NCBI GenBank assembly: GCA_902599495.1
Contig: CACKFY010000002.1
Location: 1 to 55,759 of the forward strand
Source of the DNA: an uncultured Pelagibacteraceae bacterium
GTDB taxonomy: Bacteria; Pseudomonadota; Alphaproteobacteria; Pelagibacterales; Pelagibacteraceae
Direction of reading: 5' to 3'
Length of the DNA: 55,759 nt
Part shown: one piece after another, positions 34,115 through 41,395 of the stretch
Layout: each line of letters starts with the position of its first letter
Position numbering within the stretch: position 1 is the stretch's first letter
Made by a program: the position numbers and the translations under genes
The notes under the pieces: generated by a model
The model's database searches: none
What the model saw: the letters and a program-made list of their open reading frames with translations, nothing else
What the model was told of the DNA's origin: nothing

Positions 34115-35482
34115 ATGAATATAATAATTTGCGGTGCCGGAAAAGTCGGCTTTTCAATTAGTAAGCAATTATCGTCGCAAGGCCATTCGGTCACTGTCAT
34201 TGATCAGTCGTCAGAAGATATCAAAAAAATAAATGATACTCAGGATGTTAAAGGTATTGTAGGTAGAGCTACACTACCTTCTGTTTTAGAAAATGCAGGT
34301 GCAGAAAATGCTGACATGATTATTGCTGTCACAAGGAATGACGAAACAAATATGATTGTATGTCAGCTAGCGAGTTCTTTGTTTAATATTTCAAAAAAAA
34401 TTGCGAGAATAAGAACAAAAGACTTTTTAGAAGGTAAATGGAGCAAACTTTATAATAAATCAAATATTCCTATTGATGTAATTATTTCTCCTGAGAAAGA
34501 GGTCGCTAAATCATTATTTAGAAGATTAGAGGCACCCGGAGCTCTTGATAATGTTCCATTTATAAATAATAAGGTAAAAATGCTTGAAATAGCTATAGAA
34601 AAAAAATGCCCTATAATAAATACTCCTTTAAAAAAATTAACAGAAAAATACCCAAATTTTAGAGCCAACATTGTAGGCTTGGTAAGAAAAGAGAAATTTC
34701 AGTTTTTAAAAAAGGACGATAAATTAATAGAAGGTGACAACGTATACGTGGTTGTAAGTAGTGATCAATTAAATCAAATTTTAAAGGCTTTTGGTCATGA
34801 AGAAAAAACCTCTAAAAAAATTTTAATAATTGGAGGAGGAAATATTGGTTTTCATTTAGCAAAAATGGTTGAAGAAAATTTTGAAGGAGCAAGAGTAAAA
34901 ATCATTGAAAAAGACAAATCAAGAGCTGAAGAAATTGCTTCAGATCTTACCTCTTCAATTGTAATAAATGGTGATGCTTTGGATGAAGAAATTTTAAAAG
35001 AAGCTAATTTAGAAGAGTCAGAGACTGTGCTAGCTTTGACTAACGATGATGAAAATAATATTATGGCGTGTGTTTTAGCAGAGAAGACTGGTCAAACAAA
35101 AAGAACAATCGCAATTGTAAATAAGTCAAATTACAGTTTATTACAAAGCTCTTTAAATATAGATGATTTAGTAGATCCGAGAATGACAACTGTCTCTAGA
35201 ATAATGGAGCATGTGCATAGAGGCACTATAGCTACGGTTTATTCATTATTAGATGGTGAATTTGAATTCATAGAAGCAAAAGTTTTGGAAAAGTCTGAAC
35301 TGGTAAATAAAAAAATTAAAGAGAGTAATTTACCAGAAAATACAAGGGTTGGAGCTGTTGTTAGAGGAAAGCAAGTTATTATACCAAGAAGTGATTTTAT
35401 ATTTGAAAAGGATGACCTAGTGGTTCTTTTAGTAAGTAGAGATCAATTGAATGAGATAGAAAATATTTTTAGTATTGTTTAA
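34115..35482 (+). CDS. trkA: Trk system potassium uptake regulator TrkA
   Basis: Peripheral NAD-binding gating subunit of the TrkH/TrkG potassium transporter. The 455 residues contain two RCK units, each with a Rossmann motif: IICGAGKVGFSISKQLSSQG at the N terminus and ILIIGGGNIGFHLAK near residue 233. Each is followed by a TrkA-C domain. The gene order ntrX-trkA is conserved in alphaproteobacteria. It is 3 bp after ntrX; the stop codon interlocks with that of the convergent galE. No trkH is in the window. Confidence 0.95.
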   Translation: MNIIICGAGKVGFSISKQLSSQGHSVTVIDQSSEDIKKINDTQDVKGIVGRATLPSVLENAGAENADMIIAVTRNDETNMIVCQLASSLFNISKKIARIRTKDFLEGKWSKLYNKSNIPIDVIISPEKEVAKSLFRRLEAPGALDNVPFINNKVKMLEIAIEKKCPIINTPLKKLTEKYPNFRANIVGLVRKEKFQFLKKDDKLIEGDNVYVVVSSDQLNQILKAFGHEEKTSKKILIIGGGNIGFHLAKMVEENFEGARVKIIEKDKSRAEEIASDLTSSIVINGDALDEEILKEANLEESETVLALTNDDENNIMACVLAEKTGQTKRTIAIVNKSNYSLLQSSLNIDDLVDPRMTTVSRIMEHVHRGTIATVYSLLDGEFEFIEAKVLEKSELVNKKIKESNLPENTRVGAVVRGKQVIIPRSDFIFEKDDLVVLLVSRDQLNEIENIFSIV

Positions 35483-36447
35483 ATTTTTTTTTCCCATTTA
35501 ATACAACTTTTGACTATTTTGCTTAGAATATTTTTTTTAGGTCTCCACTTTAAAAAACGTTTAATTTTTTTATTATTTGCAATTATTTCTTCCATATCTC
35601 CTTTTCGTCTATCTTTAACTTTAACTTTTATTTTTTTTCCTAATTGTTTTTGAAATTCGTATATTGCATCTAGTACTGATACACCGTTTCCATATCCACA
35701 ATTTAAAATAATATTTTTATTTTCATTGTTAATTTTTTTTAGAACCATTATATGAATTTTCGCTATATCTGACACGTGGATGTAATCTCTAATGCAAGTA
35801 CCATCTTTTGTTTTATAGTCATTACCATAAACATTTATGTTAGGATTCATTTTTTTAGAGCATATAGATAAATTTTTAAATAGTTGATCACCAATAGAAA
35901 TTTGCCCTATATTTCCACTTTCACTAGCTCCTGCAACATTAAAATATCTTAAAATTGCAAAATTAGTTTTATTTTTAATTAAATTTTTTTTAATTATATT
36001 TTCACCTTTTAATTTAGTTTTGCCATAAACACTTTTTGGCTCCAGTTTAGAATTTTCTTTTACAGATTTAATTTTGTCTTTATAAACAGCACAAGTAGAG
36101 GAAAAAATTAAATTTTTAATATCATTTTTTTTGCAGCAATTAATCACATTTCTAGTTCCAATGACATTGTTTGAAAAATATTTTTTTGGTTTTCTTTCAC
36201 TTTCACCAACACTCAAACAGGCAGCTAGATGTATGATAGACTGTATTTTATTTTGCTTAACTATTCTATCCAATCTTTTAAAATTTCTTATATCACACAA
36301 GAAAAAATTTGCTTTTTTATGAAGTAACCTTTTATAACCAGTTGAAAGATTATCAACAACAAAAACTTTTTTTTTTGCTTTTATTAATTGCTCTACAATA
36401 TGACTACCTATATAACCAGCACCACCAGTAATTAAGATATTGTTCAT
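35479..36447 (-). CDS. galE: UDP-glucose 4-epimerase (or related UDP-hexose epimerase)
   Basis: Extended short-chain dehydrogenase interconverting UDP-glucose and UDP-galactose. The 322 residues have the NAD motif TGGAGYIGSH (about 7-16), DNLSTGYKRLL, HLAACLSVGES, Ser/Thr in FSSTCAVY and the catalytic Tyr141-x-x-x-Lys145. RYFNVAGAS and GTCIRDYIHVSD are further family marks. It sits 1 bp after glf, the next enzyme toward UDP-galactofuranose, which supports UDP-Gal as product. UDP-GlcNAc specificity is not excluded. Confidence 0.92.
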   Translation of the reverse strand: MNNILITGGAGYIGSHIVEQLIKAKKKVFVVDNLSTGYKRLLHKKANFFLCDIRNFKRLDRIVKQNKIQSIIHLAACLSVGESERKPKKYFSNNVIGTRNVINCCKKNDIKNLIFSSTCAVYKDKIKSVKENSKLEPKSVYGKTKLKGENIIKKNLIKNKTNFAILRYFNVAGASESGNIGQISIGDQLFKNLSICSKKMNPNINVYGNDYKTKDGTCIRDYIHVSDIAKIHIMVLKKINNENKNIILNCGYGNGVSVLDAIYEFQKQLGKKIKVKVKDRRKGDMEEIIANNKKIKRFLKWRPKKNILSKIVKSCIKWEKKI

Positions 36448-36448
36448 T

Positions 36449-37585
36449 TCATTTATATTTTTTTTTAAGTTTATTAAATAAATTTAAGGCACATTCAATT
36501 ACTTCGTCCATATTTAAATATCTATAACTTGCTAATCTGCCTTCAAAATAAATATTTTTATTTTCCATTTTTTTAATTAATTTTTTATATTTTTTAAAGA
36601 GAATTGAATTTTTTTTGTTACTTATTGGATAATAGGGGTCCCCTTTTGATTTTGGAAATTCATAAGAAATTGTAGAATATTTAGATTTTTGTTTTGTTAC
36701 ATGTTTTATTTCTACCTTTCGCGTAAATTTATTTTCATTTGGAAAATTTATTTGTACACATTCTTGTATTTTATTTTTCTTAAAAGTTTTAAATTTAAAA
36801 TCAAGAGATCTCCAATTCAACTTTCCATACTTGTAATTAAAAAAAACATCAGGTGGACCAGTATAAATTGTTGCTATACTTGGAGAAATATTATTTTTAA
36901 TTTTTTCATATGAAGTATTAAGCAAAACCTTTATTTTTTTATTTTTAATCATATTCGCAAAAAGATGAGTATAGCCTTTTTTTGGCATTACTTTTAATTT
37001 TTGATTAACGTAGTAAGGATCACGATTAAAACGTATTGGCAGTCTACCGACAACACTTTTATTTAGATTTTTTGGATGAATTCCCCATTGCTTAATTGTA
37101 TAATTTTTATAAAAATTTTCATAAATATCTTTTCCTAATTTTGATAAAATAAAGTCTTCACTATTTTTAATTTTTTTTTTTCTAATTTTTAAAGTATTGA
37201 TAAATTTTTTTGCTTCTTTACTACTTTTAAACTTTTTATTGAAAAATTTCTCAATTGTATCAAGATTAATAGGAATGGGATATAGTTCACCTTTGACATT
37301 TGATTTGACAATATAGTTTCCTTTAATCCATTTTGTAAAATTACTTACATAGTCAAAAATTTTTCTTTTTTTAAACCTCATATAGTGCGGCCCATATTTA
37401 TGAATTCTTAATCCTTTTTTATTAATCTCATCATAGCAATTGCCGGCAATATGATTTCTTTTTTCAACAATTAAACATGACCAATTTTTAATTTTAGCCG
37501 CTCTTTCAGCTATCACACATCCCACAGGACCAGCACCTACTATGAGCAGATCAGGTTTTTTATTTTTATTTTTTTTAATATTCAT
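36449..37585 (-). CDS. glf: UDP-galactopyranose mutase
   Basis: Flavoenzyme converting UDP-galactopyranose to UDP-galactofuranose. The 378 residues have the FAD motif LIVGAGPVGCVIAERAA (about 14-30), EKRNHIAGNCYDE, HKYGPH, VVGRLPIRFNRDPYYVN, YTGPPDVFFNYKYGKLNWRS and the C-terminal RLASYRYLNMDEVIECAL, all typical of Glf. The usual GPHIFHT segment reads GPHYMRF, which marks a variant subgroup. It is flanked by galE and by a membrane glycosyltransferase in one operon. Confidence 0.92.
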   Translation of the reverse strand: MNIKKNKNKKPDLLIVGAGPVGCVIAERAAKIKNWSCLIVEKRNHIAGNCYDEINKKGLRIHKYGPHYMRFKKRKIFDYVSNFTKWIKGNYIVKSNVKGELYPIPINLDTIEKFFNKKFKSSKEAKKFINTLKIRKKKIKNSEDFILSKLGKDIYENFYKNYTIKQWGIHPKNLNKSVVGRLPIRFNRDPYYVNQKLKVMPKKGYTHLFANMIKNKKIKVLLNTSYEKIKNNISPSIATIYTGPPDVFFNYKYGKLNWRSLDFKFKTFKKNKIQECVQINFPNENKFTRKVEIKHVTKQKSKYSTISYEFPKSKGDPYYPISNKKNSILFKKYKKLIKKMENKNIYFEGRLASYRYLNMDEVIECALNLFNKLKKKYK

Positions 37586-39141
37586 TATCTTAACTTTTTA
37601 ATTGCTGATAATACCACACCGTTCCTTTTAACCTCTGCTATATTTTCTAAATTGTATTCATCATAACAATTTGAAATACTTTTATTATTTTCAGAAAACA
37701 TTGTTCTATTTGTCATAATAATATATGAGGCTTTTTTTATGTCTGTATATTCAACATTTTTATATTTTTGTTTCATATAATTTTTAACCACTGATGGATT
37801 AATACCACATGAGTAAAAATTAATTTTTTTTCCTTGTAAATTTGAGTTTAGAATTAATTCTTTTAAGCTTACTGACCAATAGTCATTTTCAAATTTTTTA
37901 TATCTTGAATCTTTTTCTCCTGAAAGAAAATTTAAAAATGTATAATGATAAGGTGTTATCTTTATGAAATTAACAAGGTGATAAGATAACAGAAAAAATA
38001 GCGTTAATTTTAAAATATTGAAGATTAAACTTTTGTTGTTAAAAATTACTACAAAAGTTATAGCCGGAATAATTACTAAATAGGGAGTAACCCATAAAAA
38101 CAATCTAAGACCGTCGTAGATAGGATATGAAATAAAAAATAAAATTAAGTTTGGGAAAATTAATAAAGTAATTATTAAAAGTATTTTAACTTTAAAATTA
38201 CTAAATTTCTCTTTTAAATAACTAAATTTAAAGATCATTATAGGAATTGAAATAATATATAAAAAAATTAAAAATTCCGGTAATTTGTACAAATAGTTAG
38301 TAAGTAAATAATTTTTTGGTATCTCATTTGAAAAAATATATGAGCCATTTATTAAATTAAAAGGCCACCCTACATTTAAAGATAAAGTCTTTAAAAAAAA
38401 TTTAAAAGGGTATGTGAAGATATTACCATGTGTGTCGACCCAAAATAATATTAAAATTAAGTAGAAAAAAATTAAATAAATCAAGATGTCTATTAAAGCA
38501 TCTTTTAATTTTTTTCTTGAAAAAAAAAATAAATTAATAAAAAAAATCATTATTATTGGAATTAAGGAGCCCATGAATAATAACTGAATACCTGTTCCTA
38601 AAGCAGATAAAGTTGAAATTTTAAAGACAATCAAAAATCTTTTTTTAAAATTAAAATTTTTAACAGTATATTTTATTAAGTAATACACTATCCAAACATG
38701 TGCAAATGTAATTATGGTGTCTTTGTTGTTGATGGCAAAGTGACCAAAAAAAAATGGAATAAAAAAAAGAAAAACGCTGATTGTTTTAGCGACGTTTGTA
38801 CTAAAAAGTTTTTTTGTAATTTTATAAACTCCAATGATAGTTAAAAAACCAAATAAGGTGTTTATTAAATGATGAATTTCTATGCTATATTTATTTGGAA
38901 CTACTTGGCTCAATAAACTCGATAGCGACCAATAAAGAGTTGAATATCTATATTTTTGATCAAAATTTTCATCTAATAATCCAAATGACAACAAATAATC
39001 AAGGTTAATTTTTCCAATAATTTGATAATATTTTTCATCCCAAGATGTGCCTAAAGATATTGCACAATAAATTCCATAAAATACTAGTAAATATTTCAAT
39101 TTGACCTGATGTTTTAATAAAAGATTTGAAAATTTATTCAA
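37585..39141 (-). CDS. Multi-spanning membrane protein, probable GT-C type glycosyltransferase
   Basis: The 518 residues have about ten hydrophobic helices. The first extracytoplasmic loop carries an acidic pair (GTSWDEKYYQ, about residues 31-40), followed by HHLINTLFGF and GHFAINNKDTIITFAHVW. This layout matches lipid-linked sugar transferases of the PMT/ArnT (GT39/GT83) type, where a loop-1 Asp is catalytic. The C-terminal about 100 residues form a soluble domain with YSCGINPSVVKNYMKQKYK. It overlaps glf by one base. Donor and acceptor are unknown; transfer of a sugar from a polyprenyl carrier is inferred. Confidence 0.68.
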   Translation of the reverse strand: MNKFSNLLLKHQVKLKYLLVFYGIYCAISLGTSWDEKYYQIIGKINLDYLLSFGLLDENFDQKYRYSTLYWSLSSLLSQVVPNKYSIEIHHLINTLFGFLTIIGVYKITKKLFSTNVAKTISVFLFFIPFFFGHFAINNKDTIITFAHVWIVYYLIKYTVKNFNFKKRFLIVFKISTLSALGTGIQLLFMGSLIPIIMIFFINLFFFSRKKLKDALIDILIYLIFFYLILILFWVDTHGNIFTYPFKFFLKTLSLNVGWPFNLINGSYIFSNEIPKNYLLTNYLYKLPEFLIFLYIISIPIMIFKFSYLKEKFSNFKVKILLIITLLIFPNLILFFISYPIYDGLRLFLWVTPYLVIIPAITFVVIFNNKSLIFNILKLTLFFLLSYHLVNFIKITPYHYTFLNFLSGEKDSRYKKFENDYWSVSLKELILNSNLQGKKINFYSCGINPSVVKNYMKQKYKNVEYTDIKKASYIIMTNRTMFSENNKSISNCYDEYNLENIAEVKRNGVVLSAIKKLR

Positions 39142-39150
39142 TGTACAATT

Positions 39151-39429
39151 TTATTTTAATTCAGAAGAAATTTTGCTAATAAACTTTTTAATTAATATCG
39201 CATCCTCATCAGATAATATTTTATCTTTTTCTAAACCACTTCTTATTTCAGACCTAATCTTGTCCTTTATCATATCAGCTGACTCTTTATCTAGACTTGA
39301 AAGTTTAGCTAAAACCTCTAATTTATCGGATAAAAATGTATTATAAAAAACATTTATAATTATTATGATTGAAAAAGTAATAGCTATTAATTTAATAAAA
39401 AAAACTTTTAAATTGCTTTCAGGTTTCAT
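39151..39429 (-). CDS. Uncharacterised small membrane-anchored protein
   Basis: Not recognised. The 92 residues have one N-terminal membrane helix (about 9-30, FFIKLIAITFSIIIIINVFY) and a charged helical remainder with regularly spaced Leu/Ile (KLEVLAKLSSLDKESADMI, ILSDEDAILIKKFISKI), likely a periplasmic helical bundle or coiled coil. It is the first gene of the - strand glycan operon, 9 bp before the GT-C gene. A chain-length or scaffold role is possible but only inferred from position. Confidence 0.65.
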   Translation of the reverse strand: MKPESNLKVFFIKLIAITFSIIIIINVFYNTFLSDKLEVLAKLSSLDKESADMIKDKIRSEIRSGLEKDKILSDEDAILIKKFISKISSELK

Positions 39430-39463
39430 GTTCTTATAATTATACTGATAGTATTAAAATTCA

Positions 39464-40219
39464 ATGATAAACTTGCCTCAAATAGATATAATTATACCTA
39501 ATTTTAATAAGGGTAAATATTTAAGAGAGTGCTTACAATCCGTAATAAATCAAACATATAAAAAATGGAAAATATATATTGTAGACGACTGTTCTACGGA
39601 TAATTCAAGAGAAATTCTTATAGATTTTAAAAAGGAAGATAGATTTAATATTACTCTTTTGGACAAAAACTTTGGTCCATCACACTGCCGCAATATAGGA
39701 ATTAAAAATTCAACATCAAATTTTATTGCATTTTTGGACTCAGATGATTTTTGGCCTGATAATAAATTAGAAATACAGATTAAAGAAATGCTAAATAATA
39801 ATTATGATTTTTCTTACACTGATATTAAATTTTTTTTTAATGATAATAAAACAAATATTGATAAAACTAATTTACCAAAAATTTATGATTTAAAAAAATT
39901 TATAACCAGGTCTACAATGAGCACTTCTTCAATTGTTGTTAAAAGAACTTTAATTGAAAAAATAAATTTTTCAAATGTTCAACATGAAGATTTTTTATTT
40001 AAGTGCCAGATACTTAAGAAGGGAAATTTAGCTTTTAAAATTTTTGATACTTTCGTATTTTATAGAATTAATAAAAATAATAGATCGTCTAATAAAATAA
40101 TTAACATAATAAATCTTTGGAAAATTAATAGATTATTTAATAATTTAGGATTTTTCGATAATCTAAAGTCTATAATCTCTATCAGTTACAACTCTTTTAA
40201 AACTTATGGTTGGAAATAA
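39464..40219 (+). CDS. Family 2 glycosyltransferase
   Basis: GT-A fold sugar transferase, cytoplasmic or membrane-associated. The 251 residues show the GT2 N terminus (IDIIIPNFNKGKYLRECLQS), VDDCSTDNSREIL, NFGPSHCRNIGIKNST and the metal-binding DXD motif as LDSDDFW, with HEDFLFKCQ as the acceptor-side acidic motif. At 251 residues it has only the catalytic domain. It is divergent from the small membrane gene; TATAAT at 39435-39440 is a candidate -10. The next glycosyltransferase gene follows within 10 bp. The sugar is not predictable. Confidence 0.9.
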   Translation: MINLPQIDIIIPNFNKGKYLRECLQSVINQTYKKWKIYIVDDCSTDNSREILIDFKKEDRFNITLLDKNFGPSHCRNIGIKNSTSNFIAFLDSDDFWPDNKLEIQIKEMLNNNYDFSYTDIKFFFNDNKTNIDKTNLPKIYDLKKFITRSTMSTSSIVVKRTLIEKINFSNVQHEDFLFKCQILKKGNLAFKIFDTFVFYRINKNNRSSNKIINIINLWKINRLFNNLGFFDNLKSIISISYNSFKTYGWK

Positions 40220-40227
40220 ATATTCTT

Positions 40228-41310
40228 ATGGAAAAAGAAAATAATAAGATTATTTTACAAAAAAATACAAAAATATACATTTTTGCACCTGCAAATACAT
40301 ATACCGGGGGTCCTGAGTGTTTGCATCAATTAGCTTATCACTTAAAGCAGATATTTAGAGTTAAAACTTTAATGTTTTATTTACCAAATGAAGTGAAAAA
40401 ACCCACTCACGAGTATTTTAAACATTATAAAGTAAAATTTACTAAAATAATTCAAGATAAAAAAGAAAATATCTTAATCATGCCTGAACACTATCTTTAT
40501 CTTAAAGAAGGTTTGAAATATTCCAAAATAAGAAAGATTATTTGGTGGTTAAGTTTAGATAATTATTTCGGTTTTAAATTTAGATATCAAAACACAAAAC
40601 TATTACGCTCGATCATAAAAATACCGTTTAACCTAATCTCAATTTTTAACAAATTAACTAGTTTCTATTTTGGAATATTAAATTATCATGATTATTTAAA
40701 ATTTATCTATAAATTTAAAGATTTAAAAAAACAATCTGAAATTTCACAAGCTGATAAACACTTGATGCAATCTTACTATTCCTATGATTATTTAAAAAAA
40801 GATTTAAATAATTTGGAATTTTTATTTGATTTTCAAAATAAAAAAATTATTCAAAATAGCAAGTATAAATCCAAGAAAGAAAACATAATATGTTATTCTC
40901 ATAAAAGTGGAGAATTTTTAAAATTTTTTATACAATCAAATGATAAAAAATTTATAGAATTAAAAAATTTTAGCGCAAAACAGATAATTGAAATTTTTAG
41001 AAAATCTAAAATTTATATTGATTTTGGATATCATCCTGGAAAAGATAAAATGCCAAGAGAGGCAGCATTATTTAATAACTGTATAATTACAAATACTAAA
41101 GGCAGCGCATACAATTCTTATGATATTCCAATAAATAAGAAATTTAAATTTAAACAAAGAAATAGTGAAATAAAGAAATTAGATGTTTTAATAGAGAAAA
41201 TATTTAAAAATTATAAAGAAGAAATAAAATTATATGGAAGATATAAAAAACAAATTTTAAATGAAGAAAAGAACTTTAAAAAACAATTATTAAAAATTTT
41301 TAAAAAATAA
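40228..41310 (+). CDS. Probable GT-B type glycosyltransferase (surface glycan)
   Basis: Confidently coding, function inferred. The product of about 360 residues opens, after a short leader, with YIFAPANTYTGGPECLHQLA, a glycine-rich start like that of some GT-B transferases. The C-terminal half has DFGYHPGKDKMPREAALFNN, similar to the conserved Glu-containing donor-binding segment (PREA). The middle is Lys/Asn-rich and poorly conserved. ATG 40228 was chosen; an in-frame TTG at 40210 would overlap the GT2 stop and add six residues. The gene ends 9 bp before the encoded CCA of tRNA-Thr on the other strand. Confidence 0.72.
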   Translation: MEKENNKIILQKNTKIYIFAPANTYTGGPECLHQLAYHLKQIFRVKTLMFYLPNEVKKPTHEYFKHYKVKFTKIIQDKKENILIMPEHYLYLKEGLKYSKIRKIIWWLSLDNYFGFKFRYQNTKLLRSIIKIPFNLISIFNKLTSFYFGILNYHDYLKFIYKFKDLKKQSEISQADKHLMQSYYSYDYLKKDLNNLEFLFDFQNKKIIQNSKYKSKKENIICYSHKSGEFLKFFIQSNDKKFIELKNFSAKQIIEIFRKSKIYIDFGYHPGKDKMPREAALFNNCIITNTKGSAYNSYDIPINKKFKFKQRNSEIKKLDVLIEKIFKNYKEEIKLYGRYKKQILNEEKNFKKQLLKIFKK

Positions 41311-41319
41311 ATTTTAACA

Positions 41320-41395
41320 TGGTGCCCTCACACGGACTCGAACCGCGAACCTATTGATTACAAATCAATTGCTCTACCAATTGAGCTATGAGGGC
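41320..41395 (-). tRNA. tRNA-Thr (anticodon TGT)
   Basis: Full cloverleaf on the - strand: acceptor GCCCTCA/TGAGGGC (41395-41389 with 41330-41324), D arm AGCTCAATTGGTAGAGC, anticodon stem ATTGA/TCAAT around loop TTTGTAA with TGT, T arm with GGTTCGAGTCC, discriminator A and encoded CCA (41322-41320). It has its own candidate promoter upstream. Confidence 0.97.

Follow-up and report, generated by a model that had tools for sequence, protein, structure and literature searches.

A candidate second surface-glycan locus in one SAR11 subclade, with a small membrane protein kept beside a GT-C glycosyltransferase

We analysed a stretch of 55,759 nucleotides from an uncultured Pelagibacteraceae bacterium (the window), in which six genes between trkA and a tRNA-Thr gene form a block that probably makes an unusual sugar and attaches it to the cell surface. 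On balance, we lean towards reading it as a second surface-glycan locus, one particular to a SAR11 subclade, with a small membrane protein (ANCH) and a GT-C glycosyltransferase as its core and galE-glf as an exchangeable part. ANCH is most likely a dedicated partner of the GT-C protein, a function that we infer; we give about even chances to the broader claim that it founds an undescribed SAR11 family of single-pass subunits of two-part GT-C enzymes, the pair being kept by selection rather than by a shared operon, since it occurs in three orientations and is gained and lost jointly even when convergent. The six genes lie where the earlier note had placed them (ORF and tRNA calling):

35479..36447, minus strand: galE, UDP-glucose 4-epimerase, allele type A (TIGR01179, 353.5 bits, cut-off 262.3; PDB 7k3p, E 1.4e-67)
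36449..37585, minus strand: glf, UDP-galactopyranose mutase, allele type A (PF03275, 209.5 bits, cut-off 26.3; PDB mutase 3hdq, E 1.2e-97)
37585..39141, minus strand: 518-aa integral-membrane glycosyltransferase of GT-C fold, PMT_2/ArnT/OST-like (structure model, Foldseek, VIA)
39151..39429, minus strand: ANCH, small membrane protein of 92 aa, single hydrophobic segment by hydropathy, proposed partner of the GT-C protein
39430..39463, no strand: divergent gap, 34 bp (31-38 bp in 13/13 compared islands)
39464..40219, plus strand: family-2 (GT-A type) glycosyltransferase, 251 aa, TuaG-like (PF00535, 123.8 bits; PDB GT2 chains)
40210..41310, plus strand: glycosyltransferase of GT-B fold, 366 aa (structure model and Foldseek)
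41320..41395, minus strand: tRNA-Thr(tgt), far border of the block, 9 bases past the last ORF, with rlmB next

ANCH was found at 71 places in 67 genomes, two of them at a contig end and 69 readable. A GT-C gene was directly adjacent in 64/69 readable places and one or two genes off in the other five; among the 64 adjacent pairs, ANCH lay 5′ on the same strand in 18, 3′ on the same strand in 30 and convergent in 16. With the window left out, 63 adjacent pairs were seen, against 17.7/70 (s.d. 3.6) expected under random placement in the same stretches. Five further ANCH places gave four adjacent to GT-C and one with a 232-aa gene in between. Pfam PMT_2, which matched one to four genes per genome in 14 genomes, by itself (E 0.001) found the adjacent GT-C at only 8/12 ANCH places in these genomes, two of the four misses being cut by a contig end; the remaining GT-C calls depend on a profile that was built up from the ANCH loci themselves and run over all ORFs wherever they lay (54 ORFs in the first pass with A1 alone, 63 with the grown profile). 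No ANCH was found with two GT-C relatives (L056 and L064), so a GT-C of the same family can lack ANCH. The 38 GT-C-relative loci were not added to the 71 ANCH places; at least 23 of them overlap other locus sets.

The association was also visible at the bolA-grx/rpsD site, where ANCH and GT-C are convergent: GT-C was present in 25/25 readable ANCH-bearing loci and in 0/40 ANCH-free loci, the latter chosen by hand down a list of 135 genomes with a grx gene and all from the >90% complete sample (G000 apart). Loci of the L115 type, in which an additional gene stands between GT-C and rpsD, were counted as the same site. A tree of the first 61 loci, 21 of them ANCH-bearing, showed seven joint changes of ANCH and GT-C, at least four on well-supported branches. 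Six ANCH-bearing loci were added after the tree; four carry GT-C and the other two (L119 and L124) are cut off by the contig end.

The ANCH family has no Pfam match and, in the samples searched, was confined to the family of the window (Pelagibacteraceae). A class sample of 385, taken to look outside the order, returned only the window's genome and one partial match of 33 residues, judged to be chance, and the phage collection gave no match. The same judgement applies to the PDB matches of the ANCH profile (hexokinase, a CD53 fusion, Skp1 and others; best E 0.006) and to weak Pfam matches of single members (best E 0.003). K13, K57, E61, L79 and K86 are invariant in 28 ANCH sequences. In island pairs, ANCH was more conserved than GT-C (78/78), GT-B (55/55), GT2 (74/78) and galE (66/78); against glf, ANCH was more conserved in 35/55 pairs and glf in 20/55, so ANCH does not consistently outrank the other island genes in conservation.

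The 518-aa protein, previously described as GT-C-like, has the GT-C fold in its structure model (pLDDT 73.6, pTM 0.77). By VIA the model matched ALG12 (Z = 22.7, 4.9 Å over 401 residues) and ArnT (Z = 21.2, 6.0 Å over 410 residues); 55 chains reached Z ≥ 8, and the titles of the 50 listed name GT-C enzymes, OST-bearing translocon complexes or GPI transamidase, whose U subunit presumably also has a GT-C fold. The best Foldseek matches were protein glycosyltransferases. PMT_2 (PF13231, gathering cut-off 26.1) scored 22.4 bits with the ORF and 27.8 bits in a six-frame search. In the GT-C alignment, D or E stands at position 35 in 63/63 sequences and at 36 in 60/63; D141 is kept in 63/63, and K140-D141 is conserved. 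We take acidic residues in the first periplasmic loop, a part of the model with low confidence, to be a GT-C signature. ArnT, PMT, STT3 and ALG enzymes share with the protein this motif and the fold over nearly its whole length, whereas identity is 8-14% (VIA list) and the block protein adjoins the single-pass ANCH. Sugar transfer outside the cytoplasm, as proposed earlier, would follow from the modelled fold. No relative of the block GT-C was found in viral_contigs.

The six genes occur in the same order in 12/14 complete trkA-to-tRNA-Thr intervals of one SAR11 subclade. Outside the subclade, where 93 genomes had trkA and 21 loci were read (one ending after trkA), the block was absent from 20/20 readable trkA neighbourhoods; the gene after trkA was trkH in 20/20, followed by gpsA in 19, so the suggested replacement of an hfq/hflX neighbourhood is not supported in this sample. 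The idea of a variable locus survives in part: the trkA-rlmB interval differs across SAR11, with no case for the same six genes in all of them, but within its subclade the block is nearly fixed and does not vary freely. Variation there is mostly fast divergence, exchange of galE-glf alleles, loss of glf and additions at the tRNA end, and the most constant part of the block is GT-C, usually beside ANCH. Loss of trkH through the block was not supported, TrkH-family genes lying elsewhere in 14/19 subclade assemblies. In one member (G051) the block is turned around; inverted repeats were rejected as the cause, the 25 longest pairs in each of two sets (266 and 159 pairs) being A/T-rich imperfect matches that we read as chance.

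The GC content of the block is 22.4% vs. 28.1% for the window, below every same-length stretch tried (100-base steps), and runs of at least six A or T make up 8.2% of the block vs. 5.7% elsewhere, which bears out the reported richness in A/T runs above the core. Equally accurate were the one-base separation of galE and glf (36447 and 36449) and the 34-bp gap between the divergent gene sets. The stops of galE and trkA overlap by four bases. dN/dS was <1 in every comparison of block genes made with relatives, and the genes are therefore real. The tRNA-Thr gene shares no 12-mer with the rest of the window, so there is no sign there of an attachment-site copy, and profile searches of the six block proteins gave no integrase; on neither count does the block resemble a mobile island integrated at the tRNA.

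GalE and Glf, which would supply UDP-Gal and UDP-Galf, the GT-A-type and GT-B cytoplasmic transferases and the GT-C protein are assigned by sequence or fold. Glf scored 302.2 bits against TIGR00031 over nearly its full length, just below the cut-off of 303.75. The galE-glf pair exists as two alleles at one site (40-48% identity), and their exchange shows as two changes on the trkA tree; at bootstrap values of 1-3 a single exchange may suffice, and repeated exchange was not accepted. In 3/19 subclade assemblies (G051, G116 and G027) glf was not detected while GT-C was retained, so galactofuranose is not a constant product: the earlier prediction of galactofuranose holds for the UDP-Galf enzymes, by family, and not for a product common to the subclade. 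Known Galf glycan loci with UDP-galactopyranose mutase and GalE resemble the block in both enzymes at the family level and differ from it in that the block has two alleles at one site and lacks glf in some relatives. Phage records with glf numbered 88, all at <60% identity; with no GT-C relative in viral_contigs and no ANCH in the phage collection, viral carriage was rejected.

The 23S gene was found in 12/19 subclade assemblies, always on a contig other than that of the block, and Pfam sugar families lay beside it in 4/5 longer stretches read (G098, G078, G115 and G060); the fifth (G107) had only a GalE-like end fragment, and G000, a 78% complete assembly, shows no 23S. With sugar genes also beside 23S in some members, and at both places in at least four, the trkA block would count as a second glycan locus. 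A 2025 study states that SAR11 O-chain genes form a single cluster (PMC11898729), and an independent polymer from the trkA block is thus not established. Like that cluster in HVR2, which occurs in the same organisms, the block has variable glycan content with RNA genes at its borders; it differs in site (trkA to tRNA-Thr/rlmB vs. between 23S and 5S), in size (∼6 kb vs. 10-90 kb as given in PMC11898729) and in that most of the subclade has the same six genes. Few cells in the ocean are as abundant as those of SAR11. Their surface, according to the same study, is built from a single O-chain cluster (PMC11898729); a second locus that is nearly fixed in one subclade and varies in its Galf supply would change how SAR11 surface diversity is counted.

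We propose that a lipid-linked glycan is built or extended by the cytoplasmic enzymes and that, on the periplasmic side, the GT-C protein decorates an envelope glycan with a sugar taken from a polyprenyl-phosphate carrier. ANCH and GT-C would together form the working core: ANCH may be inserted through one N-terminal helix, its C-terminal part lying on the same side as the active site of GT-C, and may serve as a dedicated partner, e.g., for acceptor binding or stability. The galE-glf pair would be a supply module open to exchange, and the sugar may accordingly differ among relatives. Three-component (multi-component) transmembrane glycosylation systems, as outlined in a review (PMC8035078), comprise a GT-A polyprenyl-phosphate-sugar synthase, a GtrA flippase and a GT-C transferase; the block likewise has a GT-C membrane transferase amid cytoplasmic transferases, but no GtrA flippase was found among its six proteins in profile searches, and its small protein, with a single hydrophobic segment, belongs to no known family. 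No donor synthase was recognised in the window's block, and a DPM-synthase-like gene lies inside the block in only 2/14 complete intervals (G107 and G051). Such matches occur in 16/19 subclade genomes, at 22-36% identity except in these two, and are too weak to name one as donor synthase. The review speculates that a second protein, one that binds the acceptor, may be required by small GT-Cs (PMC8035078). If ANCH is a dedicated GT-C partner, it would be a concrete case of that two-protein transfer step (PMC8035078), and the pair would offer structural work a small and testable object.

ANCH and GT-C could instead be mere passengers of one cassette that recombination carries from island to island, and have no physical or functional tie to each other. 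Many ANCH places are indeed recombining glycan loci, and galE-glf shows cassette exchange here; this reading is nonetheless unlikely, as adjacency is kept in three relative orientations and at several different sites, and the pair stays intact although glf, GT366 and the 232-aa gene vary. The proposal of the earlier note, in which the block by itself yields a complete Galf polymer as a putative phage receptor, can point to galE-glf, two cytoplasmic transferases and GT-C in one block, as well as to low GC and rapid divergence. We consider it quite unlikely, given that the six genes include no initiating phosphoglycosyl transferase, Wzx/Wzy or ABC exporter, and that GT-C stays in the three relatives where glf was undetected.

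Two other roles for ANCH itself were considered. According to PMC8035078, GT-A and GT-C enzymes in such systems should have a flippase next to them, and none was seen in the block, which would leave ANCH to transport the polyprenyl-phosphate sugar in the GtrA/GtcA role; the same source gives GtrA proteins three to four helices (PMC8035078), against one hydrophobic segment in ANCH, and GtrA is absent among the 25 of 42 weak families listed for 28 ANCH members, making this very unlikely. Highly improbable, too, is that GT-C glycosylates ANCH as its acceptor to yield a membrane-anchored glycoprotein: the Foldseek matches to protein glycosyltransferases and the long part of ANCH after its hydrophobic segment agree with this, but the 28 ANCH sequences have no invariant serine, threonine, asparagine or tyrosine. 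A dedicated partner of GT-C remains our preferred reading of ANCH.

Among the two divergent transferases, the 251-aa GT2 scored 144 bits against the TuaG model NF047683, far below the cut-off of 400. The 366-aa protein has no Pfam family above its cut-off, and its model (pLDDT 74.6, pTM 0.72) matched 8xsg (E 3.5e-10) and also WsaF, BshA and PimA in Foldseek. Its TTG start at 40210 is probably too early and the true start probably near 40231, since 9/10 homologues (own calls) begin at or after the internal ATG there, L013 beginning earlier.

The block between trkA and tRNA-Thr (window 35479-41310) is a surface glycan island with galactofuranose (Galf) enzymes, an ordinary kind of locus at an unusual site. 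ORF and tRNA calls bore out the earlier description of its six genes, their spacing, and the tRNA border. It consists of galE, glf, and the following four genes:

37585-39141, minus strand: 518-aa protein of GT-C type (GT-C)
39151-39429, minus strand: 92-aa small membrane protein (ANCH)
39464-40219, plus strand: family-2 transferase (GT2)
40210-41310, plus strand: 366-aa protein of GT-B fold (GT-B)

GalE scored over its NCBI cut-off. Glf cleared the Pfam threshold, missed that of the NCBI equivalog by 1.5 bits, and matched a PDB mutase at E = 1.2e-97. GT2 was assigned by both Pfam and PDB matches; the last gene returned no family in the Pfam search, and its predicted structure is GT-B. The GT-C fold proposed in the earlier note agrees with the predicted structure of the 518-aa protein (pLDDT 73.6, pTM 0.77; first loop modelled poorly), which matched OST, ALG9, and ArnT in Foldseek, and ALG12 (Z = 22.7; 4.9 Å, 401 residues) and ArnT (Z = 21.2; 6.0 Å, 410 residues) by VIA. 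The block is A/T-rich as described, its GC content (22.4%, vs. 28.1% for the window overall) being below that of every same-length stretch tried in the window.

ANCH, which belongs to no known family, is strongly tied to GT-C enzymes by position and co-occurrence, as judged from sequence. We read the surroundings of all 71 ANCH places from a search of the order, two of which stop at a contig end. GT-C directly adjoins ANCH at 64 of the 69 readable places (where the two share a strand, GT-C lies downstream in 18 and upstream in 30; in 16 they converge); at the other five, a 231-232-aa gene separates the two, with one gene more in L141. Five ANCH places beyond this first set gave GT-C adjacent at four and a 232-aa gene between at one. 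With the window omitted, adjacency was seen in 63 of 70 cases vs. 17.7 expected (s.d. 3.6) from random gene borders in the same stretches, an expectation that already takes a nearby GT-C as given. In favor of the tie, Pfam PMT_2 counted just one to four genes per genome in 14 genomes; against it, PMT_2 alone recovered the adjacent GT-C at 8 of 12 ANCH places there, two of the four misses being cut by a contig end. The 231-232-aa gene lies between convergent ANCH and GT-C in loci L145, L146, L147, L135, L141, and L155; in L145, the only one tested, it encodes an FkbM-type methyltransferase (PF05050).

The convergent ANCH/GT-C type is sited between bolA-grx and rpsD. Among the 27 ANCH-bearing loci there, two stop at a contig end and all 25 others have GT-C; among the ANCH-free loci read, GT-C is missing in 40 of 40. 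For 61 of these loci, a bolA-grx-rpsD tree requires seven changes of the shared ANCH/GT-C state, at least four of them forced by well-supported branches. Co-transcription does not account for this co-occurrence, since convergent genes have separate transcripts. The link is not absolute, since L056 and L064 carry GT-C relatives without ANCH.

A role for ANCH as the glycan acceptor is disfavored because not one Ser, Thr, Asn, or Tyr position is invariant across the 28 sequences compared; the most conserved positions are mostly charged (K13, K57, E61, and K86, with K8, K68, D76, and E90 conserved almost as strongly). A review of transmembrane glycosylation (PMC8035078) speculates that GT-C enzymes of small size may depend on another protein to bind the acceptor, and ANCH is a candidate for such a part. 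No paper in a full-text literature search, judged on titles and abstract openings besides PMC8035078, named such a GT-C partner. ANCH has one hydrophobic segment. Pfam gave no match to it (28 members gave only weak, scattered ones), and the PDB none that is credible. A search of 397 genomes of the order with a profile built from 13 relatives located ANCH in 67, every one a member of the window's family (5 of 13 genera). A broader profile picked it up in the window's own genome and in 26 of the 143 genomes that make up a family sample (>90% complete); in a class sample, it was found in the window's genome alone, besides one partial chance match.

ANCH is also better conserved than most of its neighbors. 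Its identity exceeded that of GT-C in 78/78 island pairs, GT-B in 55/55, GT2 in 74/78, and galE in 66/78, and that of glf in only 35/55. In all four pairs of islands whose synonymous distance was moderate, dN/dS was lower for ANCH than for GT-C (G143-G108: 0 vs. 0.090; G097-G115: 0.065 vs. 0.164; G078-G115: 0.096 vs. 0.134; G116-G097: 0.029 vs. 0.131), each ANCH value being rough because the gene is short; four further computed pairs were set aside, with dS near or >1.

The families and folds of the block, and the pairing and co-occurrence of ANCH and GT-C, are what the analysis shows. GalE and Glf would supply UDP-Gal and UDP-Galf, the cytoplasmic transferases would work on a carrier lipid, and GT-C, with ANCH beside it, would decorate an envelope glycan with a sugar on the periplasmic side. 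No donor synthase was identified in the window; in G107 and G051, two close relatives, a gene within the block resembles dolichol-phosphate mannose synthase (5mlz, E = 9.4e-21).

In a genus sample of mostly incomplete assemblies, trkA was detected in 110 of 151 genomes and rlmB in 105. A trkA identity of at least 89% delimited a close group of 17 genomes, enlarged by G277 and G100 from other searches. Complete trkA-to-tRNA-Thr intervals numbered 14 (the window, twelve further group genomes, and G277 [L043]); in 12 of them the six genes keep their order, with no others present in nine and with extra genes ahead of the tRNA in G078, G107, and G060. The G116 block is without glf and the GT-B gene, as is that of G051, whose GT2/ANCH/GT-C part is inverted. 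Contig ends cut the block in G098, G087, and G027, and the tRNA side in G100 carries only other genes. In G120 (L019), galE is followed by a shortened glf and unrelated genes, by eye including topoisomerase I, and the block looks decayed or recombined. We read 21 of the 93 trkA loci outside the group, one of which stops after trkA; trkH directly follows trkA in 20 of 20 readable loci, with gpsA next in 19. The hfq/hflX neighborhood that the earlier note described as frequent after trkA is thus not the usual one in this sample, and the six genes are not common to all SAR11, in line with its view of the locus as variable. Only 31-38 bp separate ANCH from GT2, its divergently read neighbor (window 39430-39463), in each of the 13 islands examined, the turned G051 block included; the two transcription units share just this stretch.

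Two allele types of galE and glf were distinguished (identity 40-48% between types, 67-98% within), and galE type matches glf type in all 11 compared islands having both, where trkA identity is 89-99%. The trkA tree gave two changes of galE-glf type, a single change being also compatible. GLF is present in 16 of 19 group assemblies, in the block in 15; G016 has a second copy outside the block, and G100 its sole copy. The predicted Galf is therefore not constant in the group, GLF being undetected in G051, G116, and G027; for the window's genome, the gene content makes UDP-Galf likely.

The available part of a 2025 study (PMC11898729) places a single SAR11 O-chain cluster in the 23S-5S interval, or at tRNA-Val/Met in one genomospecies; the same 23S-5S region is HVR2, one of four hypervariable regions (Wilhelm 2007, PMC2217521, as far as available), and trkA does not occur in the text of that paper. 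The accessible part of PMC7318151 names a glycosylation island and gives no trkA site, and a full-text search of the open-licence literature, as far as its texts were available, returned no paper on the trkA/tRNA-Thr block. The trkA/tRNA-Thr block is read here as a second glycan locus, apart from that cluster. 23S was detected in 12 of 19 group assemblies, always on a different contig from the block. We read 23S-adjacent stretches in six assemblies and ran Pfam on 20 chosen genes. The families assigned are of nucleotide-sugar, sialic-acid, or transferase type in G098 (cytidylyltransferase), G078 (UDP-sugar dehydrogenase, NeuB, cytidylyltransferase, DegT), G115 (UDP-GlcNAc 2-epimerase), and G060 (group-1 transferase, DegT). 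G107 has a GalE-like fragment (35%) at the contig end and no sugar family among four genes tested by Pfam; the G116 stretch is too short to judge.

In G060 (L013:7544-19801 and L014:1-1540), >13 kb lies between the GT-B gene and tRNA-Thr, with many ~190-aa proteins, a 526-aa protein with repeats and a protease-like appearance by eye, and another of 816 aa that carries a caspase domain (PF00656). Between tRNA-Thr and rlmB, G016 (L009:7439-10825) has an added APS-kinase-like protein, an arylsulfotransferase (PF14269), and a sulfotransferase, and G060 (L014) a sulfotransferase at the same spot as the G016 group. In G100 (L015:3026-8017), a 1663-aa repetitive exported protein, coiled-coil-like by eye, adjoins tRNA-Thr at the block's normal end. 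L048, a contig labelled Verrucomicrobia bacterium TMED56, holds the SAR11 trkA block and is probably misbinned.
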